From contig SXOD01000064.1 in NCBI GenBank assembly GCA_005776885.1, positions 1 through 64,000 on the forward strand: a stretch of 64,000 nt of DNA, in the 5' to 3' direction. This DNA comes from Planctomycetia bacterium. GTDB taxonomy: Bacteria; Planctomycetota; Phycisphaerae; Phycisphaerales; SM1A02. The notes below the pieces were generated by a model. The model was not told the origin of the DNA. It saw only the letters and a list, made by a program, of their open reading frames with translations, and did not search any database. Shown one piece after another: positions 5,143 to 21,696 of the stretch; position 1 is the first letter of the stretch; each line of letters begins with the position of its first letter. The position numbers were made by a program, and so were the translations under genes.

Positions 5143-5879
5143 CACGGATGAATCGATCCACCCTTCGACACGCTCGCGGCTTCAGCTTGCTTGAGCTGGT
5201 CGTCGTGATGGGCATCATCCTGGTGCTCATCGGGCTCGTCCTGGCGGTGAGCGGGGCCCTGACGGCCGGCGCGGAAAAGCGGGCCTTGGAGCAGTCGTTT
5301 GCGATCCTGGACAGCGCCGTCCAGGAATGGCAGCAGGAGATGGGTCGTGAGATGACCTTCCGCCGCACCGTGCCCGTGGCGGGTTTCACCACGGACCCCG
5401 TGACGCTGGACCATGACCAGAATCCGAACACGCCGATGATCACGCTCGGGTGGGACGTCCAGGAGGTGCCCACGGCGCAGGCTGACACGCAGAGCCGGAC
5501 GTTCCTGGATGTGCTCCTGTACTCGGAGCGCCCGCGAGAGATCCTGGCCAACCTGCCGGAGAAACTGCTTCGCAACGCTGGGTTCAACACCACCACCCAG
5601 CAGCCCATCCAGGAGCTGATCGATCCTTGGGGCAAGCCGGTCCGGGTCGTGTTCCCCTGCCGAGAGTGGGGGAAGGGGACGGGGCCCGACACGGGCGCTG
5701 CAGACATCGACGGGACCGTTCGCTCGCTGCAGGAGACGCAACTCGGCTCCTGCCTGGATCGTCGCATCCGCTTCGTGAGTGCGGGTCCTGATGGTGTGTT
5801 TGGCGACATCACCCAGCCGACATCCTCCACGCTCTACAAGCTGAGCGAGGACAACATCGAGAGTTACCCGACCCGATGA
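5139..5879 (+). CDS. GspG-like pseudopilin 2
   Basis: 246 residues. The prepilin N-terminus ARG|FSLLELVVVMGIILVL has Glu5 and a Gly -1 cleavage site. The C-terminal part has DPWGKPVRVVFPC and RFVSAGPDGVFGD, again resembling the GspG calcium-site end. ATG 5139 overlaps the preceding stop (ATGA) and was chosen over upstream in-frame starts inside the previous gene. With its neighbour, this gives two GspG-like proteins side by side; one may be a dedicated minor pseudopilin. Confidence 0.83.
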   Translation: MTRMNRSTLRHARGFSLLELVVVMGIILVLIGLVLAVSGALTAGAEKRALEQSFAILDSAVQEWQQEMGREMTFRRTVPVAGFTTDPVTLDHDQNPNTPMITLGWDVQEVPTAQADTQSRTFLDVLLYSERPREILANLPEKLLRNAGFNTTTQQPIQELIDPWGKPVRVVFPCREWGKGTGPDTGAADIDGTVRSLQETQLGSCLDRRIRFVSAGPDGVFGDITQPTSSTLYKLSEDNIESYPTR

Positions 5880-6796
5880 AGGGCGCCCTCCACCAACACT
5901 CCCCGCGCGCCCGCCGCGCCTTCACGCTGGCGGAGCTGCTGGTCGTGATGGGGATCATCGCGCTCTTGGCCACGCTCACCGCGATCAGCGTCGAACAAGT
6001 GGCCGGGACGTCTCGGCTGGCCACCGGCACCAATACGGTTATGGGTGCGCTCGGCGAGGCGCGGGCCATGGCCATCAAGGAGAACAAGCCCACCTGCGTG
6101 GCATTCGCGGTGTTCCGTGCCAACTCCGCCGCTCCGCAGCAGACCATCGTGGTCGTGGCCATGGCCACCGGACGGATGCTCAACCTCAATCCCGGGAGCG
6201 GTGCCACCGACAACGACTTGATCGCCGAGGAATTCCTCCCGGTGGATGGGCTGCCCGTGCGCCGGTTGCCGCCGGGCATCAAGGTCGCGGGACCCTTCAC
6301 GGACTATTCGCAACCGCAGTACGGCTCCTCTGACGACATCTGGATCACGCAGCCGGAGTTCTCCAACAGCGAGAATGGCTCGATGCTGGTGGTCCGTTTC
6401 GGGCCCGATGGCGGTGTGCAGACTCGCAATCCCGCGCTCCCTGCCAACATCACCCCGACGGCCGCGACCGACACGGCCTACGCCTCGCTCTGGGTGGATG
6501 TCGACCGTGACGGCCTGGTGGACATCGGGACCACGGGCGGTTCCAGCAATGGTCGCTTCTTTGACTTTGACGAGCTCGGCGACGAACCCGTCGGCGACGT
6601 CGTGGAGTTCCTCGCGATCTTTGATGATCGCGACGCACGGGAGCGCTACAACATCGCCGCGTGGAACCCGGCGACGGGCGGCGGCACGAATGCGGCCGAG
6701 GATGCCAGACGAGACGACCTGACCGAATACATCGACCAGTTCGCCGACCGGATCCACTTCAATCGCTACACCGGGGTGGCCGGGAGGCTCCGTTGA
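5876..6796 (+). CDS. GspH-like pseudopilin
   Basis: 306 residues. The N-terminal segment FTLAELLVVMGIIALLATL carries Glu5, but the residue before the expected cleavage is Ala (RRA|F) rather than Gly. The following TNTVMGALGEARAMAIKENK helix and CVAF strand are typical of GspH/FimT. It is longer than usual (GspH is about 170 residues), with an acidic, DxDxD-containing region in the C-terminal half. It overlaps both neighbours by ATGA/TTGA start-stop junctions. Confidence 0.83.
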   Translation: MKGALHQHSPRARRAFTLAELLVVMGIIALLATLTAISVEQVAGTSRLATGTNTVMGALGEARAMAIKENKPTCVAFAVFRANSAAPQQTIVVVAMATGRMLNLNPGSGATDNDLIAEEFLPVDGLPVRRLPPGIKVAGPFTDYSQPQYGSSDDIWITQPEFSNSENGSMLVVRFGPDGGVQTRNPALPANITPTAATDTAYASLWVDVDRDGLVDIGTTGGSSNGRFFDFDELGDEPVGDVVEFLAIFDDRDARERYNIAAWNPATGGGTNAAEDARRDDLTEYIDQFADRIHFNRYTGVAGRLR

Positions 6797-8142
6797 CGCG
6801 CAGGGGACCAGCCGCGAAACCGGGTGCTCGTGGGTTCTCGCTCATCGAGCTGTTGCTGGCGGTCTTCATCCTGGCGATCGGCATCATCGGCGTGAGCGCG
6901 ATCTTCCCGGCGGGCATCGTCCAGCAGCGGCAATCGCAGGACGACACCTACGGCCCGCTGGTGGCGGAGAGCGCGCTCTCCGTGATCCGGGGCAAGGTCC
7001 GGGTGCGAGACTTTGGTTCGTTCGAGCAGTTCCAGGACGGAGGCGGGAACCCCAGCCCGGACTTTGTGCCCGGCATCGCCGGCCCGACGCCGATCATCAA
7101 CCCGAGCACGCTTGCCACGAACTTCGTCACGATGGTCCCCCAGGGCTACCGTCCGCTCGTGGGGGACTGGCGGTGGAAGCGGCCGGCCATCATCTTCCAG
7201 GATTCGATTGCCGGCTTGAATCCGAGCACCGGATTCATGAGTGCGATCGACGTCTTCGGTGCGACGCTCTTCGAGACGATGAACGCCGGGACGGGCGGTT
7301 ACGTGGCGCGCGTGGGCCCCGCGAATGTCCGGTGCGAGTCGACGCTTTCGGGGTATCCGGCGAGCGCCGGCCCACTCGGGCGCTGCTACGGCATTCCTTG
7401 GAACATCGATTCACAGGGGTCGGCCCCCTGGGCCATCATCACGCAGCGTGAACGCACGTGGCCGCAGGGCATCGACTACGACCCCGTGAACGGGAATGGC
7501 AGCAATGGCCTGCTGGCGCGGCAGCAATACGTGTGGGACTGCATGTTCCGGCGTCGCGGCGGCCGGATCCAGGTGGCCGTGTTTGTCTACCGGACTTCCA
7601 GCCCCGGCGGCGAGTCCACCCCCTATGTCGTCCCCGCGAACCAGATCGTCGCGATGCCGACGGACCCGCTCGGCGGGCCGCTGCCGGTCTTCCCCCGGAG
7701 CTGGACCTTTGCGGCGAATGAGCGTTGGGGCGTCGGTGGCGCCGACGGCAACCTGCAGACCGCGGTCGATGCCAACGTCCTCCCGCTGACCACCGCCAAC
7801 TCGGGCCCCGGCAACTGGACATTGCTCGAGGACTCGTTCGGGTGGCAAGGCCCCGGACAGTGGATTCTTGACAACTACGGGACCGTCCACCGGCTTGTGC
7901 GCGGGCGGCGCAACAAGTCGGAGGGGCCATGTCGGCTCAGCAGCCCGATCGCGTACCAGGCGCCGTGTGCAGCCAACTTCCCGTACGGTTGGCAGGCCAT
8001 CAACTCGGGGCAGTTTGAGTCAACCCCGACGGCCACGGCCCAAGTCCCCAACTCCTGGGTCGACCAAATCTGGTTCATGCCGGTCCAGGATTCAGCCGGC
8101 AACACCCTCACTCCCGTCTTCGTCGCGGTGCAGGAGCTTTGA
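6793..8142 (+). CDS. GspI/PilV-like pseudopilin
   Basis: 449 residues if TTG 6793 is used; this codon overlaps the previous stop (TTGA), as at several junctions in the cluster. The N-terminus is ARG|FSLIELLLAVFILAIGIIG with Gly -1 and Glu5. The 'FILAIGIIGVSAIFPAGI' run resembles PilV/GspI. The family is normally about 120-180 residues, so the soluble domain is greatly enlarged. It is rich in Trp, Pro and Gly and has no domain I recognise. Confidence 0.8.
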   Translation: MTRRGPAAKPGARGFSLIELLLAVFILAIGIIGVSAIFPAGIVQQRQSQDDTYGPLVAESALSVIRGKVRVRDFGSFEQFQDGGGNPSPDFVPGIAGPTPIINPSTLATNFVTMVPQGYRPLVGDWRWKRPAIIFQDSIAGLNPSTGFMSAIDVFGATLFETMNAGTGGYVARVGPANVRCESTLSGYPASAGPLGRCYGIPWNIDSQGSAPWAIITQRERTWPQGIDYDPVNGNGSNGLLARQQYVWDCMFRRRGGRIQVAVFVYRTSSPGGESTPYVVPANQIVAMPTDPLGGPLPVFPRSWTFAANERWGVGGADGNLQTAVDANVLPLTTANSGPGNWTLLEDSFGWQGPGQWILDNYGTVHRLVRGRRNKSEGPCRLSSPIAYQAPCAANFPYGWQAINSGQFESTPTATAQVPNSWVDQIWFMPVQDSAGNTLTPVFVAVQEL

Positions 8143-9914
8143 CGATGGAACGGCGCCCCTCACCAACCGATCGACCGACGTCTCGTGCGTTCACGCTGAC
8201 CGAGATCCTCGTCGCGGTCGTGGTGCTGGTCGTGGTCATTGCCGCCACCGCCCAGATTTTCGGCACGGCGGGCAAGGTCGCTGGGCTTGGACAGGCCAAC
8301 CAGGCCGTTCTCCAGGAATCCAGCGTGGTCGAACGCATGATCCGGCAGGACTTGGAGGCGCTGGCGAACGAGGGTTACTTCATGGTCCAGTGCGTGGCCG
8401 TCCGCAACGATGCGGCGCGGTTCTGGCCAAGTGGCGACCCGAATGCGCCGCTGCTCGATTCCAACCGGCCGGCCACCGAGTATCTCCGCGCCGACCGAAT
8501 CGTTTTCTTCCGCCACGGCCAAGAGGAGACCACTCGATTCATCGGCAGCCGGGACCAGGGTGCCTTCGGCGGGCTCCCGGCAGCCACGCTTTCGCGCGTG
8601 ACCTATGGCCACGGCGTGCAGATGGAGGACTCGGTCATCCAGTCAGGGTCAAGCGTCCAGCGATTGGATCCACTTGGCTTCGACAGCGGCCCGCTCACGC
8701 CGTGGGCGGGGGACAACCCGCTTGACGGCCCAGACCTGAACACGGCGATTTGGCCCGCGGGAACCGCCGGCCCTCGCCGGAGTGGCCGCCAGCCCGAGGC
8801 CCGCGACTGGATCCTTGCGCGGAGCGCGGTCCTCTTGGCAAATGATGGCGGGTCACGCGATCACCTCGCGACCGACAACTCGTACGGCCCCTCCAGCACC
8901 GTCGGGCTCTTCCAGCAGTCCAACGCCTGGCAGCCAGTCAATGCGCCGTTCCCTGCCTACGACCTGATGGCCTCGCGCGTGGACGCCGCCAGCAGCACGA
9001 TCGACGAGGTGGAGCGGTCGGTGTGCAATGGCATCATTCCGGTGAACGGTTCGTCTTCCAGCGTCTTCTACGAAACCAACCTGCCGTTCTGGAGCTCGAC
9101 TGCCGCATGGAACCAGCAGGTCCGCGGCCGGTTGATTGGCGGCACATTTGGTCCCTTCGTCGGGCAAGTGGCCGTGGGCGGCTACCCGCGCGTGGAGAAG
9201 GTGGCTCCCAGCATGGATCGGCAGGACCAGATGCTGGTGGCACCGATGCTCGCCGGCAATTGCTCCAGCTTCACGGTTGACTGGACCTGGGATCGATGGG
9301 TGGGACACGAGCACACGGGTGACCACGACTCTCCGGACGTGCAGGTCTGGAACGCGGCCGGGACACAGGCGTGGCAGGCGTCCGGATACATCCCGAACTT
9401 TGCCGAGCCTCGCGTCTGGTATGGGTTGCCGGACGGATTGCCCGGTCAGGGGGGCAATGCTGGGCCCAATGAGCGTGGTGTGTACTCGCTTTCCGAGCGC
9501 GTGGGCTCCGCCGGACCGGCACCATTCAACTTCCTGACGGGACCCGCACAGCCCACGCTGTATCCCCCGCTGTGGGATCCGATCACGGGCATCGGGGCGC
9601 AGCGGATCGAGGGTGGGATGAACAATGCGCTGCCTGTGCCTCAGCCGATCCTGGCTTGGCCATCGACTGCCAACCCGGTGCTCTGGGTGTACACGGCGAC
9701 GTTTGGGTTCAATCACGAGGAGGGGGTCAGTGTCGTGACGAACACGGCAACCGACCCACCGACCGTCCGTGCGACCTCGCGCACCGACGTGACGCCATTG
9801 CCAAGCGCACTCCGATTCACGGCTGTGTTGCACGACCCCGAGAAGAAACTGGAGCGGGGCCGGTCGTTCCAGTTCGTGGTCGAGCTCACGCGCGCAGGAG
9901 GACGAGAGCGATGA
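8139..9914 (+). CDS. GspJ/PilW-like pseudopilin
   Basis: 591 residues. SRA|FTLTEILVAVVVLVVV carries Glu5 and Ala at -1. The following helix (QANQAVLQESSVVERMIRQD) matches the GspJ/PilW pattern. Starts at TTG 8139 (overlapping the previous stop) or ATG 8145 are both possible. The protein is about three times the usual GspJ length; the extra C-terminal region has no recognisable domain. The stop overlaps the next start (ATGA 9911). Confidence 0.8.
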   Translation: MTMERRPSPTDRPTSRAFTLTEILVAVVVLVVVIAATAQIFGTAGKVAGLGQANQAVLQESSVVERMIRQDLEALANEGYFMVQCVAVRNDAARFWPSGDPNAPLLDSNRPATEYLRADRIVFFRHGQEETTRFIGSRDQGAFGGLPAATLSRVTYGHGVQMEDSVIQSGSSVQRLDPLGFDSGPLTPWAGDNPLDGPDLNTAIWPAGTAGPRRSGRQPEARDWILARSAVLLANDGGSRDHLATDNSYGPSSTVGLFQQSNAWQPVNAPFPAYDLMASRVDAASSTIDEVERSVCNGIIPVNGSSSSVFYETNLPFWSSTAAWNQQVRGRLIGGTFGPFVGQVAVGGYPRVEKVAPSMDRQDQMLVAPMLAGNCSSFTVDWTWDRWVGHEHTGDHDSPDVQVWNAAGTQAWQASGYIPNFAEPRVWYGLPDGLPGQGGNAGPNERGVYSLSERVGSAGPAPFNFLTGPAQPTLYPPLWDPITGIGAQRIEGGMNNALPVPQPILAWPSTANPVLWVYTATFGFNHEEGVSVVTNTATDPPTVRATSRTDVTPLPSALRFTAVLHDPEKKLERGRSFQFVVELTRAGGRER

Positions 9915-12900
9915 CCAGTCCCACGATTCCCGCATCGTCGAGCCGAGTGAACCGTCCGTGCCGTCGAGGCAACACGCTGGTCTTGGTGACCGCGATCCTG
10001 GTGCTGCTGGCGATCGTTGCCGTGGCGTACCTCTCACGCACGCAGGCCGGGCGCGCGACCGCAGCGGCGCAGCAGCTGGCCAACTCGCGTGGCGAGCGCA
10101 TGGATGCGATCAGCGACAACCTGGCGCAGATCGTTTCCGAGGCACTTTTCGTCCGCCCCGCGGACCCCGGGGATCCGTGGCTCACGTTGTCGCCCAATGC
10201 AGCGACGCAGATGCCCACGCCATCGCCATCGCGGCCGCGTGGTGCCGTCGACCCCAATGCCCATCGATACAACATCGACGGCTTGGACATGTTCGGGAGC
10301 GTGAATGACCCGGACCTCGATGGCCTGCTGGATGCCACCGCCGGGTCGGACGGCATCCCCGAGGGGTACAACTATGCGCCATACGTCGTGCAGCCCTGGA
10401 CCAACTGGCCTGATGTCTTCGGCGTCTTTGCCGGCGATGGGAATCCTGCGGGGAATCCTTCGTACGGGGACTCCCGCTGGCTCCGGAGTTCGGAACCTGT
10501 CCGGCAGCTGATCCCTCCCACCCTCGCGAACCCGCCAATCCCCAACGGATCGCCGTTCGGGTCGTTTACCCACTGGCAGCACCTTTCATGGCTGCCCACG
10601 GCGGACAATGGATGGCGGCTGATCACCGACCTGAAGGACGTGGACTCGTCGCTCGCCGCATCCGTCGCCTTTTCGCCGCAGCAGTTGGGCGTTCCCCTGG
10701 TCGGGCAGGCCGGGTGGGCACTGGACATGCCATACGAGCAGTGGCTCCCGGACGTGGTTCCCAATCCGGCGTACTTGACGCACCTCAACGGGTCCAATGG
10801 TTCGATGGCGTTGGCGCAGCAGTTCCGGACGCATGCACAATCGTGGTTCTCCAACTACTACGGCTTGGTCGGTGCGGCTCCCGCCGGCGGCGACCCCTTG
10901 CCGAACTTCTTCCGGTTGGCCTCGTGGGGGCCGCCGACGGATGAGTTCGTCGATGGCAGCGCACGCCAACTGATCACTCGCACGCTTGCCGACGCCGACG
11001 GCGACGGGTTCACCGATTCCTACTGGTTCCTCGCTCCCACCAGCACGGATCGGGGCGTTCGCCAGGCGGTGGCTGTTTCGATCACCGACAACAGCGCCCT
11101 GGTCAACGCCAACGTTGCGTCGCGGTTCGATCGCCGGACCTCGTTTGGTGCGACGCCAGCCGACGTGGCCCTCGTCGGGTCCTTCGACCTCGTCGCTGGG
11201 ACCGTGTCGCCGTTTGACCTGCCGACGGGCTTCTTCACCGATTGGGCCAACCAAGCCGACTTGCTCCCCAGCGGGGCGATCGCGACATCGGCCAACTACC
11301 TGTACAAGCCAACGCGCGTCCTCTACGACGAGGCGATGTTCGGCGCGGCGACCAACGCCAATGTCATTGGCGGGCCGCAGAGCCTCCTCCTGACGGGGGA
11401 CTCCGACAACCCGACGTACCTGCGAGCCCTCGGAGCGGTGCGGCAGACCGCCACGGGGACATCGGGCCTGCTGGATGCGTTCCGATACCAGCTTCGTGAG
11501 CCCGCCGAACGCGTTCGCTGGTTCAAGGCGATGGGACAGGACGGCGAGATCAACAGTTGGATCAACGGCGACGACACCGCATCCGGCGGGCCGGCTGCGT
11601 CGACCTTCCTTCGTCCGGCGAGCGGCGACCCGCCGGGTCGCCTTCGGTCGTTTGACGAGAGTGACGAGATCGAGCTACGCATGCGTGCCGGCAGCAACAA
11701 CGCGTCCGTGCTCTCGCGGCTTGAACGGGCGGTGCAGCGGACAGACGCGCTCGGTGCCGGCGCAGACACGAACCCAGACACCTACTTCGACTTCCTCCGG
11801 GCGAGCAACGACCGGCTGGAGACGCTTGATGCCCTCGACGCCCAGGCGGCTGGCACCGGCGGCCAGTGGGATCGCTTCCGTCGCCTCAACGCACAGCAGT
11901 TGCTTCGCGACAATCGCCGCAAGATGACGGTGATGTCCGGAGCTCGCAACGAAGAGCTCCCGCCGTGGCTGTGGACCGTTCCGCGTGGCACATTCAACTT
12001 CCAGACCGGGCTTTGGACGTACTTCTCAGGATGCGCGCCAACGCAGGTCTGGCCGGCGCCGGCGACCACCCCGAACGCGTCCGCCCAGGCGAGCGTTGGG
12101 TACATCGCGGGGAACGGCTACTTCCGAAACGACTGGCTGGCGTGGAACCGAAAGGTGGACCTGCGGCGTGCGGCCGTTGAGCCGACGTATGACGCGGCCT
12201 GGACCCTTGTCAACGGTCCGGCGATTCGCCAGGGTCGCACGGAGTTCCTCAACCAGGTGTCGCGCGTGCTGGAGCGGTCGCTGCTGGACCCCGTCGTGAA
12301 CCCCGCCGACCCCAACGCCGTTCGAGCCAGTTACTTCGGCATACAGGCCACGGGCAATGATGCCGTGCTCACGACTCGCCGGATGGTTGCGTCGTGGGCT
12401 GCCAACATCGAATCCTTCCGGGACCCGCCGAAAGTGCAGCCGGACGGGTCGTTCATGGACCACCCGTTCCACCCCAACGAGGCGTACACGATCGCGGAAG
12501 ACGTGGGTGGTTCTGAGCCTCGCGCCTACATCGGGTACGAGAAACAGCCGTTCATCCAGGAAGTCTTCTTCGCCTTGGTCTACCCCAAGAGCGAGGTGGG
12601 GCCAGGGTGGCCCACCGCAGGGCAGTCCACGATCCCGCCTGGCTATCCAGACGGCGGCGAGAACTTCGTGACCTACGACCCCAACGGGCCCGCCGACCAG
12701 CAGCCGGCCGTGGTGTTGGCTGTGCAGATCGCCAACCCACACCACGAGCCGATCCCCTTGGGGAACTTCGCGATCCGCGCGTTTGGCCAGACGTTCCGGC
12801 TTGGCCAGCTCTCCACGACGGGCTGGGGATACGGCATGAACCCCATGCTCGGTCCCGCGACCGAGACGGCACCCAGGAGTGCCATCGTCTTCTGCTGCCC

Positions 12901-15331
12901 CAAGGACCTCGGTGGCGACGCTGACTTCCGCGTGAAGTGGGTGGACTTCCTCGACCTCACGCACGAGTGGATCCGCAACGGTGCACCAGCCGGCTCCACG
13001 CATCCGTATCCAACCAACTTCATGGCCGAGCTCACGGCCGCGTCGGCGGGCGGCGTCCAGGCGTGGCCGCTCCCGCCCGACAACTCGGAGACCGACCTGT
13101 TCGAGGATGCCGCCACGGCCTACCCCGACACGCTGGTGTTCAATGCCACCCAGGAAGCAGGCAACCTGTTTGGGCGGTGGGACGAGGGTGTCACGTCGGC
13201 CGGTGTGGCCAAGTACCGCAACTACCTGACAGGCGGGACGCAGCCCACTGTGGAGCTGCTTCGCAACGTCATTCCGCTGGATCCGCTGAACAGCGTGGCG
13301 GAGGTCGTTGTCGACCGCATCGAGAATGAATTCAACGAGGATTCTGGTGACTTTCGCGATGCGCTCGAGCGCCTGTTCGATCCGGCCGGTGACCACGTGC
13401 CGCCGCCTCCCACGGCCTATGACGCGGCGGCCGACCCGGGCGCGGGCGGGACGCAGTCACCGACCTTCAACGGGATTCGTCTCGGCGGGACCGGCGACTA
13501 TTTTTGCACCTGGATTCGGGTGGCACGCCCATGGGCGTACGACACGGACGCCGACGGTGCCTTTGAACTGATGGAACGCGCGCCACGATTCGTGGTGGCC
13601 GCAGGACAGCGACCGATCGTCGTGACCAGCACGGCCACGGCGATGGAGGGTGGTGTACGGAGGGACCGAACTGGCAGCATCTGGGATGACGCACTCGATC
13701 CGGATGGCACGTCGCTTGGTGCTCCGGCCCCCTGGTTCGTGGCCAACTCGCGTGACATCTACGGTCGATCGGTTCGTGGGAAGCCGACCCGCTTCAACAG
13801 CCAGGGTGTCTTCGTGGGAGCCAGCACCGATCGGGTGTACACGGCATTCAACTACCCGCAGTCGTCGACGTGGGGCGATTACTCAGGCACCTCCCCCGGC
13901 GGATTGCCAGGGCTCAACATCCAGCCGGGTGACAAGGGCATTGAGAACGACACCGCGGTGAGTGGCCAACAGACCGAGGTCTGGCGCGGGACCCTGGACA
14001 TGACGTGGAAGGATCGGGACTTTGACCAGATCGCGGAGGTGGCCAATGTCTGGCAGTGGGGGCCCGTCCTCCAGGGAGGCTCCACCTACGCCACCTTCTC
14101 CGAGATCATGTCGGGAGAAGTTGACGAGTACCCGATCATCAAGGGGCCATGGTTCGAGGCTGACGGTTCCACCAGCTACACCGACGGCACGCTGGCCAAC
14201 CGACTTTCGTTCCCATACGACCAGGCAAGCGCGGACCAGACCACCGCGCACGGCTTTGACCCGACGAGGACCCGCACGATGCTCCGCAGCCTCGCGGCGT
14301 ACCTCCCCGCATTGCCGGCGGGTTGCGCGATCTTCGATGGATTCACCATTGACGATCGAGGCGCCGCGTACGTCGCCGGCAGCTACGACGAGCTCCAGCA
14401 GGGGGTCTCGACGCCGCAACAGCGAGCCGAGAGCGAGGCCCGGGCCGAGGATCGTCGATTCAGGCTGGCCATGGGGTACCAAGCCCAGTCAACGCCTGGC
14501 TTGATCAACGTCAACACGGCACTGCTGGAGTCGCTCAACGCGATGCCGTACATGCGCGCGCTCCCGGTGAATGAGCAGGCCGCGGGGCCGATGTGGGCGA
14601 CCTCGGGCGGGGCCGGCCCGGACCTCGTGGGGGGGTGGGACCCCAATGCCACACCGCTCGTTCGAGTGCCCTCGTCGCTGCTGATGTACCGGGACCTCCG
14701 CGGCGGGGCCATCGGCTACAACCCAGCCAATACGAACGCGCCGCCGTTCTATACGGATCGTGGCCTCCAGCCCAACGCCATCGCCGGCACTCCCGGCATG
14801 TGGCCCGGGATGCGGCGTGGCCAGGGACTGTGGTCGCTTGGCGAACTGGCCCTCCTGAAGCGCACCGTCGGCCAGACACAGGCGGCTGGCTATCCGTCCT
14901 CCGGCCGAAGCTGGAGCATCCAGTTCGCGGGACTGGATCCTTATCAGGATGCCGGAATCGGCTGGTATTCGTGGGCCAGCATGGATGTCCGCAACGGGTT
15001 GGATCGCAATGTGGCCGCGATCCAAGGTGACCTGACCTTCACCAACGAGGTCGAGCCAACGATCCTCAGCAGCGACGGTGACGTGGCGACCGCCGAGGAA
15101 CTCAACATGCTCCACGGCGCGATGTCCAACATCGCTTCCGTTCGCAGCGACTACTTCACGGTCCACTTCCTGGTGCGGACATTCCGTCCCAACAGCCTCA
15201 CGGGACGATGGGACGCAACCGACCCGAGTTCCGTCATCGATGAGTCGCGATACGTCATGCTGGTGGACCGGACCCCAGTGGATCGACCCGGCCAGAAGCC
15301 CCGCATCCGATACTTCACCAAGGTGCCGTGA
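9911..15331 (+). CDS. giant GspK-like minor pseudopilin (1806 aa)
   Basis: The N-terminus has a basic leader and one hydrophobic helix at about residues 21-41 (NTLVLVTAILVLLAIVAVAY). Glu5 is absent, as is normal for GspK/PilX. Near residues 1527-1545, LINVNTALLESLNAMPYM matches the helix-hairpin-helix hallmark of GspK, so this is a GspK relative at the end of a pseudopilin set. Normal GspK is about 320 residues. The insert contains DxDxDG calcium-loop-like stretches near residues 360 and 1210 and no domain I can name. ATG 9911 overlaps the previous stop. It probably forms part of the pilus tip complex with the GspI- and GspJ-like proteins. Confidence 0.8.
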   Translation: MTSPTIPASSSRVNRPCRRGNTLVLVTAILVLLAIVAVAYLSRTQAGRATAAAQQLANSRGERMDAISDNLAQIVSEALFVRPADPGDPWLTLSPNAATQMPTPSPSRPRGAVDPNAHRYNIDGLDMFGSVNDPDLDGLLDATAGSDGIPEGYNYAPYVVQPWTNWPDVFGVFAGDGNPAGNPSYGDSRWLRSSEPVRQLIPPTLANPPIPNGSPFGSFTHWQHLSWLPTADNGWRLITDLKDVDSSLAASVAFSPQQLGVPLVGQAGWALDMPYEQWLPDVVPNPAYLTHLNGSNGSMALAQQFRTHAQSWFSNYYGLVGAAPAGGDPLPNFFRLASWGPPTDEFVDGSARQLITRTLADADGDGFTDSYWFLAPTSTDRGVRQAVAVSITDNSALVNANVASRFDRRTSFGATPADVALVGSFDLVAGTVSPFDLPTGFFTDWANQADLLPSGAIATSANYLYKPTRVLYDEAMFGAATNANVIGGPQSLLLTGDSDNPTYLRALGAVRQTATGTSGLLDAFRYQLREPAERVRWFKAMGQDGEINSWINGDDTASGGPAASTFLRPASGDPPGRLRSFDESDEIELRMRAGSNNASVLSRLERAVQRTDALGAGADTNPDTYFDFLRASNDRLETLDALDAQAAGTGGQWDRFRRLNAQQLLRDNRRKMTVMSGARNEELPPWLWTVPRGTFNFQTGLWTYFSGCAPTQVWPAPATTPNASAQASVGYIAGNGYFRNDWLAWNRKVDLRRAAVEPTYDAAWTLVNGPAIRQGRTEFLNQVSRVLERSLLDPVVNPADPNAVRASYFGIQATGNDAVLTTRRMVASWAANIESFRDPPKVQPDGSFMDHPFHPNEAYTIAEDVGGSEPRAYIGYEKQPFIQEVFFALVYPKSEVGPGWPTAGQSTIPPGYPDGGENFVTYDPNGPADQQPAVVLAVQIANPHHEPIPLGNFAIRAFGQTFRLGQLSTTGWGYGMNPMLGPATETAPRSAIVFCCPKDLGGDADFRVKWVDFLDLTHEWIRNGAPAGSTHPYPTNFMAELTAASAGGVQAWPLPPDNSETDLFEDAATAYPDTLVFNATQEAGNLFGRWDEGVTSAGVAKYRNYLTGGTQPTVELLRNVIPLDPLNSVAEVVVDRIENEFNEDSGDFRDALERLFDPAGDHVPPPPTAYDAAADPGAGGTQSPTFNGIRLGGTGDYFCTWIRVARPWAYDTDADGAFELMERAPRFVVAAGQRPIVVTSTATAMEGGVRRDRTGSIWDDALDPDGTSLGAPAPWFVANSRDIYGRSVRGKPTRFNSQGVFVGASTDRVYTAFNYPQSSTWGDYSGTSPGGLPGLNIQPGDKGIENDTAVSGQQTEVWRGTLDMTWKDRDFDQIAEVANVWQWGPVLQGGSTYATFSEIMSGEVDEYPIIKGPWFEADGSTSYTDGTLANRLSFPYDQASADQTTAHGFDPTRTRTMLRSLAAYLPALPAGCAIFDGFTIDDRGAAYVAGSYDELQQGVSTPQQRAESEARAEDRRFRLAMGYQAQSTPGLINVNTALLESLNAMPYMRALPVNEQAAGPMWATSGGAGPDLVGGWDPNATPLVRVPSSLLMYRDLRGGAIGYNPANTNAPPFYTDRGLQPNAIAGTPGMWPGMRRGQGLWSLGELALLKRTVGQTQAAGYPSSGRSWSIQFAGLDPYQDAGIGWYSWASMDVRNGLDRNVAAIQGDLTFTNEVEPTILSSDGDVATAEELNMLHGAMSNIASVRSDYFTVHFLVRTFRPNSLTGRWDATDPSSVIDESRYVMLVDRTPVDRPGQKPRIRYFTKVP

Positions 15332-15335
15332 TCCG

Positions 15336-16091
15336 ATGGGTGTCGCACCGCTCGCCACGGCCGGCCAAGGCACGAAGCCCGCTCGAGATGAGGGGATGCC
15401 ACGCCACGTCGCCATCATCAGGGATGGCAACGGCCGGTGGGCCAGCCGCCAGGGACTCCCTCGCCTCATGGGGCATCAAGCTGGAGTGTCCACTGTTCGG
15501 CGGATCACCGAAGCGTGCGCGAACCGCGGCATCGAGGTGCTGACGCTCTATTCCTTCAGCACCGAGAATTGGTCCCGCGCAGCTGAGGAAGTGGAAGGGC
15601 TGATGGGGCTGGCGCGGATCCAGCTCGCCATGCAGCGAAGCGAACTCAGGAAGAGCAACGTCCGCGTGAAACACTTGGGCCGGCGAGAGGGACTGCCGCC
15701 GGCCGTCCTGGAGGAGCTGGACAAGACCGTGGAGGCGACGGCGGATTGCACCGGGATCACGCTCGTCGCAGCACTCAACTACGGATCACGGCAGGAGATC
15801 GTGGACGCTGCGCGCTCGCTCGCCGCTGACGTCGCGGCGGGCCGGATCGCTCCAACTGAGATCGATGAGGCGGCGATTGGAGCTCGCCTTGGGACGGCCG
15901 GACTCCCGGATCCGGACCTGATGATCCGGACGGCAGGGGAACTCCGACTGTCCAACTACCTGCTTTGGCAGGCCAGCTACGCGGAGTTCATCGCCGTTCC
16001 CACCCTCTGGCCGGATTTCACGGAGGATGACCTCGCCCGTGCCCTGGATGAATTCCGACGCAGGCGGCGGACGTTTGGGGGGAAGCGATGA
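15336..16091 (+). CDS. uppS: undecaprenyl diphosphate synthase
   Basis: 251-residue cis-prenyltransferase that condenses isopentenyl diphosphate units onto farnesyl diphosphate to make the undecaprenyl carrier for cell-wall and glycan synthesis. The motif HVAIIRDGNGRWA (24-36) holds catalytic Asp30. TLYSFSTENW and the C-terminal RTAGELRLSNYLLWQASYAE are the other signature blocks. Position 29, Met in the usual IIMDGNGRWA motif, is Arg here. ATG 15336 lies 4 nt after the GspK-like gene, so uppS may ride on the pilus operon transcript. A GTG/ATG further inside (ATG 15396) would also leave the domain intact. Confidence 0.93.
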   Translation: MGVAPLATAGQGTKPARDEGMPRHVAIIRDGNGRWASRQGLPRLMGHQAGVSTVRRITEACANRGIEVLTLYSFSTENWSRAAEEVEGLMGLARIQLAMQRSELRKSNVRVKHLGRREGLPPAVLEELDKTVEATADCTGITLVAALNYGSRQEIVDAARSLAADVAAGRIAPTEIDEAAIGARLGTAGLPDPDLMIRTAGELRLSNYLLWQASYAEFIAVPTLWPDFTEDDLARALDEFRRRRRTFGGKR

Positions 16092-16155
16092 TGGCGACTG
16101 CTCAAGGTGGCCGCAGAACCGGGAAGATTCGACTGGCCCTTCCGGCGGCCCGGGC

Positions 16156-16161
16156 TACACT
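16156..16161 (+). promoter_or_regulatory. possible -10 (TACACT) for the Cys-rich protein gene
   Basis: TACACT, the same hexamer seen before several other genes in this window, lies 61 nt before GTG 16223. A GGAG Shine-Dalgarno-like sequence at 16212-16215 fits that start codon. Confidence 0.4.
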
Positions 16162-16222
16162 TACCGGACTGCACGCAGCCCGACGGTCGGGCGCCAATGG
16201 ATTGGCATTACGGAGCGACCAC

Positions 16223-19200
16223 GTGACGCTGGATCGAACGAGTTGTTGGCTCGATGCCGCTGCATGGCCCAGCCGGATGGCGGTGCTGGCGATGTTGGCT
16301 TGCGTGGCCCTGTTCTCGCTCCCGCGCCTGGCGATGGCACAGATGCCATGGGTCGGTGCGACGGGCACCCTTGGCGACCTCAACAATGACCGCCGGGTCG
16401 ACGCACGCGACATGTTCATCCTGGAGGCGGACTTTGCGTCGGGAACCAACCCCGCGCGCAGTGACCTCAACCGGGATGGAGTCGTCAATCAGCGGGATGC
16501 CACCGACCTCGATCGCGCGATCGCGATCGCGGCCGAGGGGATTCGCGTCCCCCAGTTCTATTTCAGCGAGATCAGGTGGGGACGCCCCAACTTTGGTGGC
16601 CTGAACCAGGCCCGATTCCTTGAGTTTGGCATCACGACGCAGCCCGTCACCACGCAGTACACCGGTGTCTTCCCCGCAGGCGTCTATTACCTTGCGGTGA
16701 CGAAGACGGGCTCGGGACAGTCAGGCAATCAGGGCATCATCGTGGCGGTGGAGGACCTGAGCGGTCGGGCGTTTGGCACCTCCGGGGCGGGACTGGGCCG
16801 GTGCCTGCTGTTGGATCCGTACTACCAGAACAATGCGTTCCCGCTGGCGCTTCCTCCCGAGTCGGAGTCCCCGCGCAACTATGCACTCCGAAACCTGGGC
16901 GATCCCAACTACGACAACCCAGACTTTGGCGTCTTCTACGAAGACCTGAACGTGGTGCACTACCTGGTCTACCGTCGGCCCAGCGCCGGGGCCTATGTCT
17001 CGCCGCTCGCTCGGCCTGACCTGGGGCAAGACCTTGACACGGTGCCAGCGCCCGGATGCACGATCGACGACCGATCAGGCGCGATTGGGAGCCAACTCCC
17101 GCCCTGGGACTTCATCCTTGACGGCGTCACGATGCTCAGGAGCTCCAACACGGCGCAAAACGCCACGTTTGGGTGCCCGTACGCCAAGGGCAACTCCTAC
17201 ATGGTCGGGCCTGATGGTTTTGGCTCCGCGCCATACCACTCCTGGCGGTGTGAGCCCTTCGGGCTCTGGCGGTTCCACAGCCCACTCGCATTTGGCGCCG
17301 ACACGCCGGGGCGATCGAATTCGCTGTGTGACCCCGAGAACTATTGCGGTTCCGAGGCGACGGGTGACTGCGTCAAGCCCCACAGCGGCCCCTTCTGCAG
17401 CGACTCCGACTGCTGCAACTACGTGTGCTCCGTGGATGTGGCGTGCTGCGAGGTGAGCTGGGACTCGGATTGCGCGGACTTGGCGCTGGCCCAGTGCACC
17501 AGTTGCGGAGGACTGGGCACCGGCAGTTGCTTTGATCCGCACGACAATCCCTACTGCGACGACGGCGACTGCTGCGCGCTGATTTGCGCGACGCGACCGC
17601 TGTGCTGCGTCCTGGATTGGGACGAAGACTGTGCCGAGGCGGGGCAGGACCAGTGTCTCGCCTGCGGGAGCCCGATCACGGGTCCATGCGACCTGGTGCA
17701 TGCCTATCCCTCGTGCGAAGACAACGAGTGCTGCACCATCGTGTGCAATGCAGACCCGGCGTGCTGCGCGTTCTCGTGGGACCAGTCGTGCGTCGAGTAC
17801 GCCGCCCTCTACTGCAACTCCAGCGAGTGCGGGGCGGTGTCCGCTGGCTCCTGCTGCTTCTCCAAGGACACGCCAGGGTGCAACGACGCAAGCGTGTGTG
17901 CCATTGTCTGCGCCAAGGACCCATACTGCTGCGAGGTGAGGTGGGACATCTTCTGCGCGCAGCTCGCGGACGACTACGTCCCGGGAGGGTGTGCGTGCGG
18001 GCCACTCCCGCTGCTGCCTCCCGTCTCGCTCAACTGCTTCACGACGCACTATTCGCCTGGATGCGGAGACTGGGCGTGCTGCGACCAAGTCTGCAATGCC
18101 GATGCGTTCTGCTGTGCGGTGGAGTGGGACAGTGCCTGCGTGGCGGTGGCCCAGTCGCTGTGCTCGGAAAACTTTCCGGACGTGTGCGGGCTCCAGCTGG
18201 ACAACGACCCGCTGGCCTACAGCTGCCTCGTGGTCCACGCCACGCCGGGCTGCGATGACGGCGGCTGCTGCGACGTCGTGTGCAGCCTGAACCCGTGGTG
18301 CTGCGACCCATCCATTGGATGGGACCAGTCGTGCGTGGATGCCGCCGGAACGGAGTGCGAGAGTTGCGGCGAGGCGCTCACCGAGTCTTGCTACTCGGCT
18401 CATGGGACCCCATCGTGCTCGCACGCGGAGTGCTGCGACGTCGTGTGCGCCGCGGATCCGTTCTGCTGCGAGTACGAATGGGACGGTGTCTGTGTCGACC
18501 AGGCACTCTCCCTCTGCGCGGAGCCGATCGCACAATGCGGCGCGGACGGCTTGCGGCCCTGCGAGACCTGGAGCACCTTGCCCGGTTGCGCCGACACCGA
18601 TTGCTGCACCACGATTTGCGAACTGTACGACCCCTTCTGCTGCGAGACCAGGTGGGACGCCGTATGCGTGCAAGAGGCGATCACGTTCTGCCGTCCGCCC
18701 CTTGGCTCAGGCCGTGGCGACTGCCTGGAAGTGCATGAACAGGAGGGATGTGCCGACGCTTCGTGCACCGCGACCGTCTGTTCGGTCGACCCCGCGTGCT
18801 GCGAGGACTCGCTTCGCTGGGACCAGTCATGCGTGGACGCCGCGGCCGCCCTGTGCCTGGCGACCGGGACGTGCCCCTCCGCCGGCTCCCCGTTCTCGGC
18901 GCGAAACGAGCCCGGTTGCGAAGACGTGGCCTGCTGCAACGTGGTGTGCGAGATTGATCCCACCTGCTGCGATGAAGCGTGGGATGCCAGTTGCGTCCAG
19001 ACGGCGCTGGTGCAGTGCAAGCCATTCCCGCAATGGGAGTGCCCGTGCTTTGGCAGCCCCTTCGAGATTCACGACAACCCGGGGGCGGACGACGAGTCGT
19101 GCTGCTCCGTGGTGTGCCAGGTCGACCCTGGCTGCTGCATCGACGGATGGGACGAGGGATGCGTGGTGCTGGCGCGCGAGCGCTGCTGTGGCCCCATCGG

Positions 19201-20242
19201 GTGCGGCTCGGGCTGCAACGGGGACTGCTACGTCGACCACGATGGCCCATTCTGCTCGGATCCGTACTGCTGCGAAGCCGTCTGCCAGGAAGACCCCTTC
19301 TGCTGCTCGGCGGGTTGGGACGGTTTCTGCGCGGAACTGGCCTCGGAGCGATGCACTGGCTGCGGGTCCCTCAGCCCTGAGGCTGGCTGCTTCGTGGGGC
19401 GCGATTCGCGTGGCTGCAACATCCCCGCTTGCTGCGAGGCGGTCTGCGAAGTGGACGCCTTCTGCTGCCAGACCGCCTGGGACTCGACCTGTGCCGAGCA
19501 GGCGGTGGCCTCGAGCGATTGCGTGGACGAACGACGCGAGTGTGGCGATGCCGGCCTTGGCGATCCATGCGTGGCCCATCAGGACGTCGGCAGCAACGAC
19601 GAGGATTGCTGCGAGGCCATCTGCGCGCTGGACTCCTACTGCTGCGAGACAGCCTGGGACGCGACGTGCGTCGGCCAAGCCTTGGAGAACGATGACTGCC
19701 CCTGTGCCCGCGATGCCGGAGATCCCTGTGCCGGACCCTGCTGCGAGGCACACGAGGGACCGAGTTGCGACAACGAGGACTGTGCCACCGCTGTGTGCGC
19801 CGCCGACGCCTATTGCTGCTCCACCGAGTGGGACGCGACGTGCGCCAGCTCCGCTCGTGCCCTGTGCTACGACGACAATGGCGGCGCATGCCCATTTGTC
19901 TGCGGCGTGCCCGGGTCCGGCAGTTGCTGCATCGCCCACATCTCGCCGACGTGCGACGACGCCTCGTGCTGCGAAGAGATCTGCGCCAAGGACCCGTACT
20001 GCTGCATCCAGTCTTGGGATGAGACGTGCGTGGGCTTGGCCGTCCGTGGTTGCGGCACGCTCTGTGACACGGAAGCGCTCTTCTGCGGGTCACCAATCGC
20101 CGGCGACTGCTTCGAGGCACACAGCGACCCGTACTGCGACAACAAGGGCTGCTGCTCGTTTGTCTGCTCGCTCCTCCCCGAGTGCTGCCTCGTCGCGTGG
20201 GACGAGACATGCGCGGCGGTGGCGGGCAAGATCTGCCCGTAG
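16223..20242 (+). CDS. secreted dockerin/LTD-like protein with 17 Cys-rich repeats
   Basis: 1339 residues from GTG 16223. This start gives a signal peptide (hydrophobic MAVLAMLACVALFSLP, cleavage near AMA|Q) and has a GGAG Shine-Dalgarno; ATG 16088 is an alternative that adds 45 residues. About residues 50-100 hold a dockerin type I-like pair (GDLNNDRRVDARD and SDLNRDGVVNQRD). About 112-366 resemble a lamin-tail domain, opening YFSEIRWG and closing DTPGRSN. From about 381 to the end run 17 tandem repeats of about 56 residues. Their pattern is C-x-H-xx-P-x-C-xDxx-CC-xx-[VI]C-xxDP-xCC-xxx-WD-xx-C-xxxA-xxxC. The repeat has no name I recognise. Disulfide-rich extracellular or outer-surface location is inferred; whether a cohesin partner exists is unknown. 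Confidence 0.85.
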   Translation: MTLDRTSCWLDAAAWPSRMAVLAMLACVALFSLPRLAMAQMPWVGATGTLGDLNNDRRVDARDMFILEADFASGTNPARSDLNRDGVVNQRDATDLDRAIAIAAEGIRVPQFYFSEIRWGRPNFGGLNQARFLEFGITTQPVTTQYTGVFPAGVYYLAVTKTGSGQSGNQGIIVAVEDLSGRAFGTSGAGLGRCLLLDPYYQNNAFPLALPPESESPRNYALRNLGDPNYDNPDFGVFYEDLNVVHYLVYRRPSAGAYVSPLARPDLGQDLDTVPAPGCTIDDRSGAIGSQLPPWDFILDGVTMLRSSNTAQNATFGCPYAKGNSYMVGPDGFGSAPYHSWRCEPFGLWRFHSPLAFGADTPGRSNSLCDPENYCGSEATGDCVKPHSGPFCSDSDCCNYVCSVDVACCEVSWDSDCADLALAQCTSCGGLGTGSCFDPHDNPYCDDGDCCALICATRPLCCVLDWDEDCAEAGQDQCLACGSPITGPCDLVHAYPSCEDNECCTIVCNADPACCAFSWDQSCVEYAALYCNSSECGAVSAGSCCFSKDTPGCNDASVCAIVCAKDPYCCEVRWDIFCAQLADDYVPGGCACGPLPLLPPVSLNCFTTHYSPGCGDWACCDQVCNADAFCCAVEWDSACVAVAQSLCSENFPDVCGLQLDNDPLAYSCLVVHATPGCDDGGCCDVVCSLNPWCCDPSIGWDQSCVDAAGTECESCGEALTESCYSAHGTPSCSHAECCDVVCAADPFCCEYEWDGVCVDQALSLCAEPIAQCGADGLRPCETWSTLPGCADTDCCTTICELYDPFCCETRWDAVCVQEAITFCRPPLGSGRGDCLEVHEQEGCADASCTATVCSVDPACCEDSLRWDQSCVDAAAALCLATGTCPSAGSPFSARNEPGCEDVACCNVVCEIDPTCCDEAWDASCVQTALVQCKPFPQWECPCFGSPFEIHDNPGADDESCCSVVCQVDPGCCIDGWDEGCVVLARERCCGPIGCGSGCNGDCYVDHDGPFCSDPYCCEAVCQEDPFCCSAGWDGFCAELASERCTGCGSLSPEAGCFVGRDSRGCNIPACCEAVCEVDAFCCQTAWDSTCAEQAVASSDCVDERRECGDAGLGDPCVAHQDVGSNDEDCCEAICALDSYCCETAWDATCVGQALENDDCPCARDAGDPCAGPCCEAHEGPSCDNEDCATAVCAADAYCCSTEWDATCASSARALCYDDNGGACPFVCGVPGSGSCCIAHISPTCDDASCCEEICAKDPYCCIQSWDETCVGLAVRGCGTLCDTEALFCGSPIAGDCFEAHSDPYCDNKGCCSFVCSLLPECCLVAWDETCAAVAGKICP
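17367..20239 (+). repeat. 17 coding repeats, about 168 bp each, Cys-rich
   Basis: Diverged tandem units within the surface-protein gene. Each codes a CC-xx-[VI]C-xxDP-xCC-xxxWD core, usually with 8-9 cysteines. Units 4, 9, 10, 11, 13, 14 and 15 lose or shift single conserved residues. Linkers vary from a few to about 15 residues. Divergence is high enough that the DNA repeats are not near-identical, which suggests old duplication rather than recent slippage. Confidence 0.9.
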
Positions 20243-20278
20243 GCCGGGTCGTGGAGCCTTGGGGGGGTGCGTGTCGCC

Positions 20279-20310
20279 TGCGCGTCGTTTGCGCGTCGTC
20301 TGCGCGTCGT
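20279..20310. repeat. 11-bp tandem repeat, 3 units
   Basis: TGCGCGTCGT followed by one variable base occurs three times at an exact 11-bp period in the convergent gap between the Cys-rich protein gene and purA. A degenerate further unit follows. No hairpin with a T-run is evident here. Confidence 0.8.
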
Positions 20311-20322
20311 TCGCGCCGCCGC

Positions 20323-21696
20323 TCAGCAACACGCGGCGGGCTGGCGGACCAGCGTCTGCGAACGGTCGGGCCCGATGCCAACCATCTCGATCGGAATGCC
20401 AAGGTGTTGCTCGATGCGAGCGAGGTAGGCCTGGGCGTTCCCGGGCAGCGCCGCTCGGTCGCTCGCCGGCAGGGCCGTCTCGGGCCACCCCGGAAGGGTC
20501 TCGTAGACAGGCTCGTAACCCTCCAGGCCCCGGGCGTCGGGCACGAATCGGTCGGTCATCGAGCCGTCGGGCCGACGGTAGGCGACGCAGATCTTGAGTT
20601 CGTCGAACCCCGCGAGCACATCGAACAAGGTGCACGCGATGCCAGTGGCGCCACAGAGCATGGAGGAGTATCGGACGGCGACGAGGTCCAGCCAGCCGCA
20701 CCGACGCGGGCGCCCGGTGGTCGTCCCGTACTCGCGTCCTCGTTCGCGGATCCGGTTCCCCGTGTCGTCGAGCAACTCCGTCGGGAATGGGCCACCGCCG
20801 ACCCGTGTGCTGTAAGCCTTCATGATGCCGAGCACTCGCCCGACGTTGCCACCGGGGACACCGGTTCCGGCTGGGATGCCGAGGGCCGAGCAGTTCGAGC
20901 TGGTGACGTAGGGGTAGGTCCCGTGGTCGATGTCCAGGAGCGCGGCGTTGGCTCCTTCGAAGAGCAGCGATCGGCCCGCCGCAATGGAATCGTGGAGGAA
21001 GTACACCGTGTCGGTGACATGGGGGGCAAGCCGTTGGCCGATCTCGGTGTACCGGGCCGCCATCGCATCGGGGTCCAGCGGCGCCACGGCAACCCCGAGC
21101 GCCTCCAGCTCCGCCGTGCGCAGTCGGCAGATGACGTGCATCCGCTCGCGCAGGTACGCGGGGTCCAGCAGGTCTCGCATCCTGATCGCGGTGCTTCGCC
21201 GGACCTTGTCGGAGTAGGCCGGACCGATCCCACGACGGGTGGTCCCGATCGCCAGGCTTCCGCGCTGGCCGGCGGTGACGCCCGAGAGATACTCCTCCAA
21301 GGCCGCGTCCTGGTCCTTGTGCCATGGCATCACGACGTGGGCGCGGTCGCTGATGAGCAAGTTGCGGCCGTCCACGCGAATGCCCCGGGACCGGAGCTTC
21401 TCCATCTCCTCAAGCACCTTCTCGGGATCCACGACCGTGCCGTTTCCAATGACGCACGTCTTGTCCGGGTACAGGATGCCGGAGGGGATCAGGTGGAGGG
21501 CGTACTTCTGCCCCTCGGCCACGACCGTGTGCCCGGCGTTCGCCCCGCCGTTGTACCGAACGATGACGTCGTGGCGTGCGGTGAGCACGTCCACGATCTT
21601 TCCCTTGCCCTCATCGCCCCACTGGAGGCCGACGACGGCGGTGTGGGTCGTGCGGGACGGAGATGCGTGATTGCTGCAGCAGGACTGGCCGGGCAT
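20323..21696 (-). CDS. purA: adenylosuccinate synthetase
   Basis: 457 residues; makes adenylosuccinate from IMP, aspartate and GTP in AMP synthesis. The P-loop QWGDEGKGKIVD is at about 25-36, followed by NGGANAGHT; GTTRRGIGPAY and TTTGRPRRCGW are further signature blocks. The N-terminus has about 17 extra residues before the first strand, so a shorter start is possible, but no better in-frame ATG is present. It is convergent with the Cys-rich protein gene and divergent from hemW. Confidence 0.96.
   Translation of the reverse strand: MPGQSCCSNHASPSRTTHTAVVGLQWGDEGKGKIVDVLTARHDVIVRYNGGANAGHTVVAEGQKYALHLIPSGILYPDKTCVIGNGTVVDPEKVLEEMEKLRSRGIRVDGRNLLISDRAHVVMPWHKDQDAALEEYLSGVTAGQRGSLAIGTTRRGIGPAYSDKVRRSTAIRMRDLLDPAYLRERMHVICRLRTAELEALGVAVAPLDPDAMAARYTEIGQRLAPHVTDTVYFLHDSIAAGRSLLFEGANAALLDIDHGTYPYVTSSNCSALGIPAGTGVPGGNVGRVLGIMKAYSTRVGGGPFPTELLDDTGNRIRERGREYGTTTGRPRRCGWLDLVAVRYSSMLCGATGIACTLFDVLAGFDELKICVAYRRPDGSMTDRFVPDARGLEGYEPVYETLPGWPETALPASDRAALPGNAQAYLARIEQHLGIPIEMVGIGPDRSQTLVRQPAACC

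Follow-up and report, generated by a model that had tools for sequence, protein, structure and literature searches.

A predicted secreted protein of lake-type Phycisphaerales with 17 cysteine-rich repeat units, near-constant in number and order

A 64,000-nucleotide stretch of DNA from a Planctomycetia bacterium (lineage SM1A02 of the Phycisphaerales; assembly GCA_005776885.1, contig SXOD01000064.1, positions 1 to 64,000), hereafter called the window, encodes a predicted secreted protein of 1384 amino acids, in which a cysteine-rich unit of about 51 residues, here named CC-WD for short, is repeated 17 times in tandem. The number and order of the units are almost constant over at least 6 genera, which differ at about half of the residues, while the N-terminal modules, or heads, are swapped. 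Such near-constancy, despite free exchange of heads, suggests a scaffold, or a rod on the cell surface, whose length is set.

Conservation of the array

Complete arrays were counted in 30 relatives, a duplicate (L206) and fragments at contig edges being left out. Exactly 17 units without gap were found in 23 of them. Four relatives, all of one genus (L198, L199, L238 and L239), feature 17 detected units and, between units 2 and 3, an insert of about 135 residues that contains decayed CC-WD units; the other three contain 18 units, the extra one aligning at the N-terminal end. Among the 27 arrays with 17 detected units, the pairing of unit i with unit i scored above the mean of permuted orders in 351 of 351 pairs, at z values of at least 3.3 (median 6.8); in a single pair, one permutation out of 500 equalled the observed value.

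Single positions of the array carry traits of their own. Across the relatives, units 4, 15 and 16 keep a CC at columns 9-10, as unit 14 mostly does, unit 9 lacks C1 and mostly C24, and unit 8 lacks H13; the spacing of the units is almost constant from unit 5 to unit 17. Relative to the nearest homologue (74% amino acid identity), nonsynonymous divergence (dN) is 0.20 and synonymous divergence (dS) 1.43, with dN/dS about 0.14; the computation shows the array to be under purifying selection. In most relatives the gene has uppS on one side and a convergent purA on the other, with hemW and ubiA beyond purA; as far as sequence comparison tells, the array is an ortholog of old standing with conserved synteny (uppS-[array]-purA-hemW).

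What precedes the array differs. The protein of the window features a dockerin and a lamin-tail-like (LTD-like) region; the head is a dockerin alone in the four relatives with the insert, an LTD-like region followed by a dockerin in L202, and a signal peptide only in L105, L204 and L208. In L203 and L205, both with 18 units, an LTD-like region is followed by a vWA-like DTSxSM stretch, recognized by eye in the letters only, and by a dockerin. Computation shows the N-terminal part to be swapped or absent, while the array stays.

The CC-WD unit

The 17 units, taken together with 9 units of paralogs, give the consensus CGxxxxGxCxxxHxxPxCxDxxCCxxVCxxDPxCCxxxWDxxCVxxAxxxC. A first-pass annotation, made from the letters of the window, had counted 17 tandem repeats, and exactly 17 are found, spaced by 52-66 residues, each matching a hidden Markov model (HMM) of the repeat at E<=1e-10, the model having been trained in part on the same 17 units. 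The conserved core then proposed (CC, VC, DP, CC, WD, C, A, C) is present, but was drawn too narrowly, the full core running CG, G, C, H, P, C, D, CC, VC, DP, CC, WD, CV, A, C; the figure of usually 8-9 cysteines per unit has to be corrected to 8-12, mostly 9-11 and most commonly 10. Cysteines total 178 over the whole protein. Written as a degenerate DNA pattern, the core matches the window 11 times, against no match in 100 dinucleotide shuffles. Linkers between units are short, and a C-xx-CG joins units 1, 2 and 3.

No named domain had been assigned to this pattern at first reading, and the repeat is indeed without a match in Pfam, NCBIfam, PHROGs, PDB sequences (searched by phmmer and by profile) and PDB structures; no paper naming it was found in the literature. 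Several apparent likenesses were discarded. The WD is one Trp-Asp, conserved within a cysteine unit of 51 residues, and WD40 profiles gave no match. The phospholipase A2-like motif CC..HD.C is differently spaced, the unit having a W at the place of the catalytic His, and Foldseek gave no PDB match of any kind. An LNR/Notch-like reading of a stretch in a paralog of 931 residues (L010) found no support in Pfam. The cysteine spacing is similar to that of the I2-superfamily conotoxin profile (PF17557), whose Pfam cut-off is passed by one myxobacterial protein; since the best match falls on a separate small cysteine module (residues 191-220), and on no CC-WD unit, we regard the likeness as a coincidence of spacing. 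A Myxococcales protein (L140:3-1043) contains five matches to this profile beside two CC-WD-like units. DUF4215, the nearest curated repeat of myxobacterial type in our scans, matched two repeat-bearing proteins, but no CC-WD unit of the window.

Units 1-3 were modelled by AlphaFold2 from 145 aligned triples, with a mean predicted local distance difference test score (pLDDT) of 94.9 and a predicted template modelling score (pTM) of 0.71. Each unit is predicted as a compact, self-contained fold, as had been proposed, composed of an extended N-terminal part, a helix (21-30), a short helix (33-36) and a further helix (41-51), the same in all three. Foldseek found no PDB match to the three-unit model at E<=10, in a kind of search which small disulfide-rich folds often escape, and two matches in BFVD, both meaningless.

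Cysteine pairing was deduced from joint loss across about 660-696 distinct units, whose sequences are related, the events being thus not independent. Joint loss is clear for C9-C18 (phi 0.77-0.80) and for C28-C35 (phi 0.70-0.74), and supports these as probable pairs within the unit. Less firmly supported, as putative pairs, are C1-C24, where joint loss is moderate (phi 0.35), and C23-C51, where the raw phi is only 0.11, because insertions blur the position of C51; most of the few units without C23, such as unit 4, also lack C51. C34 and C43, almost invariant, are left over as partners for each other. The covariation fits disulfides formed inside the unit, in agreement with the paired cysteines noticed in the first annotation.

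Distribution of the unit

Further repeat proteins, which the first annotation had proposed to look for, are present in the same genome, where the repeat profile detects 29 units on seven contigs. Two of the carriers are paralogs lying side by side on C79; others are subtilase-like (C16) and LTD-like (C42). Within the family, 92 of the 101 genomes sampled carry units, and a genome may hold at least 68 of them; outside the family, only two genomes in a 301-genome sample of the order contain any, and 199 genomes spread over the phylum contain none, except for the genome of the window itself.

The degenerate pattern, scanned over named genomes, identified at least 117 stretches, and among those listed are Phycisphaerales, other Planctomycetota, Myxococcota (Sorangium, Minicystis, Corallococcus, Paraliomyxa) and Flavobacteriales. 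In myxobacteria the unit takes the form CxHxVCxxGxxLxxxCxxCxxxVCAxDPYCCxxxWDxxCVxEAxxxC, which hhalign matches to the core of the planctomycete unit over 30 columns (E 5.5e-14). Matches also include contigs of Lake Zurich metagenome-assembled genomes (L105, L107 and L133; Andrei et al., PMC6461901), so that bacteria of this kind are the probable source of the window. Fourteen contigs listed in IMG/VR (L214-L227) match the core pattern, 13 of them also by HMM, and most feature clear units; plasmid and phage records gave no match to the repeat.

In 111 other repeat-bearing open reading frames (ORFs), the unit is accompanied, according to Pfam, by subtilases (12), GBD_T9SS (9) and dockerin (9), as well as by FG-GAP, kelch, C-type lectin and reprolysin, and, in single cases, by transglutaminase, P-domain and TSP3. 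One protein (L234:4044-8438, minus strand) is a metallopeptidase (HEAGHNWGAGH) that also bears three CC-WD units and a tail resembling a dockerin.

Gene layout and N-terminal modules

The protein of the window consists, in order, of a predicted signal peptide, a type I dockerin, an LTD-like region and the 17 repeats (residues 420-1383), after which it stops (Table 1). The stop previously assigned to the gene, 20242, is correct; the start at 16223 is a possible GTG start, but the longest ORF starts further upstream, at 16088, and the signal peptide has its methionine at 16277. Orthologs with similar hydrophobic N-termini and an A-x-A lend support to the predicted signal peptide, and the description of a secreted protein with tandem repeats is supported.

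The dockerin (residues 95-145), seen at first reading as N-terminal EF loops, passes the Pfam cut-off of PF00404, Dockerin_1 (E 2.2e-7, 31.4 bits against a cut-off of 22.9); it scores 37.8 bits in the genome-wide search, and two helices are predicted at a pLDDT of about 80-92. The genome, 84.6% complete, contains 20 dockerin-like matches and no match to the Pfam cohesin PF00963; a cohesin is matched in only 14 of the 101 relatives, and in neither of the two other genomes of the genus. The further proposal that the dockerin is a cohesin-binding module is unsupported, because the genome is without a Pfam cohesin.

The lamin-tail-like assignment is supported only indirectly: the region, about 260 residues long, matches LTD-like domains of paralogs by hhalign (E 9.3e-25), but there is no direct match to the Pfam LTD profile, PF00932, within residues 150-440. 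One paralog reaches PF00932 at 19.1 bits, below the cut-off of 34.3, and none of the paralog LTD-like domains matches it when taken alone. The structural model of the region contains strands only, at low confidence (pLDDT 63), and Foldseek gave weak matches to it, many of them Ig-like, with a best E of 0.04.

Upstream of uppS, the window contains four N-methylation (pseudopilin-like) genes and an ORF of 1919 residues (5073-15331), and in several genera this pseudopilin operon and ORF are likewise conserved beside the array; the genome has three secretins at other places. Downstream, a consensus scan found no terminator 3' of the 17-repeat gene, and an 11-bp tandem repeat (TGCGCGTCGTC-like, about 4.5 copies) lies at 20268-20316, between the convergent array and purA genes.

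Table 1. Features of the array gene and its flanks, in window coordinates
Feature	Position	Strand	Basis or remark
uppS (undecaprenyl diphosphate synthase), upstream	15078..16091	+	Pfam PF01255, E 5.7e-76; syntenic; true start later than ORF start
17-repeat protein, ORF	16088..20242	+	longest frame; likely start 16223 GTG or 16277 ATG
Predicted Sec signal peptide, MAVLAMLACVALFSLPRLAMA/Q	16277..16339	+	read from sequence
Type I dockerin-like EF-loop pair, DLNNDRRVDARD ... DLNRDGVVNQRD	16370..16522	+	Pfam Dockerin_1
LTD-like beta-sandwich region	16556..17329	+	hhalign to paralog LTD-like domains
CC-WD repeat 1	17345..17497	+	HMM
CC-WD repeat 2	17504..17656	+	HMM
CC-WD repeat 3	17663..17815	+	HMM
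CC-WD repeat 4	17828..17974	+	HMM; without C23 and C51
CC-WD repeat 5	18026..18163	+	HMM
CC-WD repeat 6	18209..18358	+	HMM
CC-WD repeat 7	18365..18517	+	HMM
CC-WD repeat 8	18536..18691	+	HMM
CC-WD repeat 9	18710..18856	+	HMM; without C1 and C24, likewise most orthologs here
CC-WD repeat 10	18875..19018	+	HMM
CC-WD repeat 11	19043..19186	+	HMM; C9 and C18 both gone
CC-WD repeat 12	19202..19354	+	HMM
CC-WD repeat 13	19361..19510	+	HMM
CC-WD repeat 14	19541..19687	+	HMM
CC-WD repeat 15	19718..19867	+	HMM
CC-WD repeat 16	19901..20053	+	HMM
CC-WD repeat 17	20084..20236	+	HMM
purA (adenylosuccinate synthetase), downstream, convergent	20323..21696	-	Pfam PF00709, E 1.9e-166; syntenic

Discussion

The explanation we prefer, which in our judgement is about evenly balanced between right and wrong, is that of a secreted stiff scaffold or rod of set length, featuring individual lateral surfaces on its units and exchangeable heads. 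Seventeen abutting helical hairpins, stapled by disulfides, would build a stiff rod or a superhelix of set length, located on the cell surface or within the extracellular matrix, and the exchangeable N-terminal modules would attach it or add binding functions. Rod shape and surface location are what we infer for the array protein, together with a selection which keeps the length of the array and the position-specific side surfaces. The interpretation in the first annotation is partly supported, namely in the compact fold of the unit, the disulfides within it and the lack of a named domain; the surface rod or adhesive protein imagined there would be a further step. The repeat on which it was founded is confirmed.

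Several observations weigh against the rod. The array has no transmembrane segment or known C-terminal anchor, as the chain stops one residue past repeat 17. Units 1-3 are less conserved, and it is there that the unit count varies. Amino acid identity between units is only about 41%, and Tandem Repeats Finder detects no unit-length DNA repeat: copies having diverged, unequal recombination within the array would be rare, and a stable copy number could reflect its mere loss. Rare recombination, in turn, leaves unexplained why no deletion is seen in units 4-17 and why unit-specific traits are kept. At least 17 unit matches are found in 51 of the 101 family genomes, the rest having too few to carry an array, which is therefore not essential to the family. 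Finally, VKOR, DSBA and Thioredoxin_4 are all without a match in the genome, although about 170 cysteines per protein would have to be oxidised. Thioredoxin_4 is matched in 15 of the 51 family genomes with at least 17 unit matches, against 37 of the 50 others (Fisher p 9e-6, uncorrected for relatedness); the lineages best endowed with secreted proteins rich in cysteines often seem to be without this family of oxidases, the usual one.

Three other explanations have to be considered. In a polyvalent adhesin or ligand-binding array, units would all bind one type of ligand, be it a peptide, a glycan or a metal, for instance on lake-snow particles, and gain by avidity. Single units on secreted subtilases, reprolysins, C-type lectin, kelch and FG-GAP proteins, placed like carbohydrate-binding modules, and the high number of units a family genome may hold speak in its favor; avidity, however, predicts interchangeable units in variable number, instead of the position-specific traits and near-constant number observed, and none of the non-structural residues is conspicuously invariant, H13 (63%) and D20 (70%) being possible exceptions. 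We regard this explanation as unlikely. Distinctly improbable is a role as part of the hypothetical planctosome, proposed for freshwater Phycisphaerae (CL500-3) and comprising, as far as the published account bears on it, an LTD anchor, dockerins, cohesins, reprolysin-like peptidases and P-domains (Andrei et al. 2019, PMC6461901). The head, with its dockerin and LTD-like region, would dock the rod into an outer-membrane complex of cohesins, dockerins and peptidases. In its favor, the window protein has a dockerin and an LTD-like region, is predicted to be secreted and probably belongs to lake bacteria of the same sort, and repeat-bearing reprolysin, P-domain and TSP3 proteins exist in the set compared; the model, as outlined in that account, has no CC-WD array and needs cohesins, absent by Pfam from this genome and from the two others of the genus and found in few relatives, and several array orthologs lack both dockerin and LTD-like region.

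Still poorer chances are given to a structural wall protein, cross-linked by inter-chain disulfides, which would be the Phycisphaerales counterpart of the YTV-domain proteins. These cysteine-rich wall proteins, according to PMC8567305, which cites Hieu 2008 and Mahajan 2020, are reported only from Planctomycetales, which would leave Phycisphaerae without them; as described there, they share with the array protein a large size, secretion, richness in cysteines and a planctomycete origin. The abundance of cysteines in the window protein, and extra or odd ones in some units, which could link chains, are compatible with such a role. The 17-repeat protein, however, has no YTV string, and its range at the order level is another one; conservation of copy number and position was observed for the array. 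Most cysteines seem to be paired inside the unit, most array-carrying genomes have no Thioredoxin_4 (DsbA-like) match, and about half of the family probably lacks the array. What probability these readings and the stiff rod leave over goes to none of them.

Two further systems offer partial likenesses. The EF-loop pair of the window protein, passing the Dockerin_1 cut-off, recalls the type I dockerin of the cellulosome (PF00404, PF00963); unlike there, the genome has no Pfam cohesin, no cellulase part is present and some array orthologs lack a dockerin. TraA of myxobacteria (PMC3325183), a secreted surface receptor with cysteine-rich tandem repeats, is similar by description, and CC-WD is also found in Myxococcota.

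In its widest form our proposal is tentative, and we would sooner expect it to fail in some part than to hold as a whole: CC-WD would be a new disulfide-rich domain family, which lake-type Phycisphaerales have in common with Myxococcota and which serves secreted proteins as a general building block, and from which one planctomycete lineage fixed a 17-unit ruler, selected for length and order, its head being exchanged, to serve as a surface rod. The family itself is an undescribed one, common in uncultured lake planctomycetes and in myxobacteria, for which the consensus suffices to build a profile, and its confidently predicted fold has no PDB counterpart. The array offers a clear comparative test of length selection on bacterial surface rods and, in genomes without a Pfam cohesin, an addition or an alternative to the idea of a cohesin-based planctosome.

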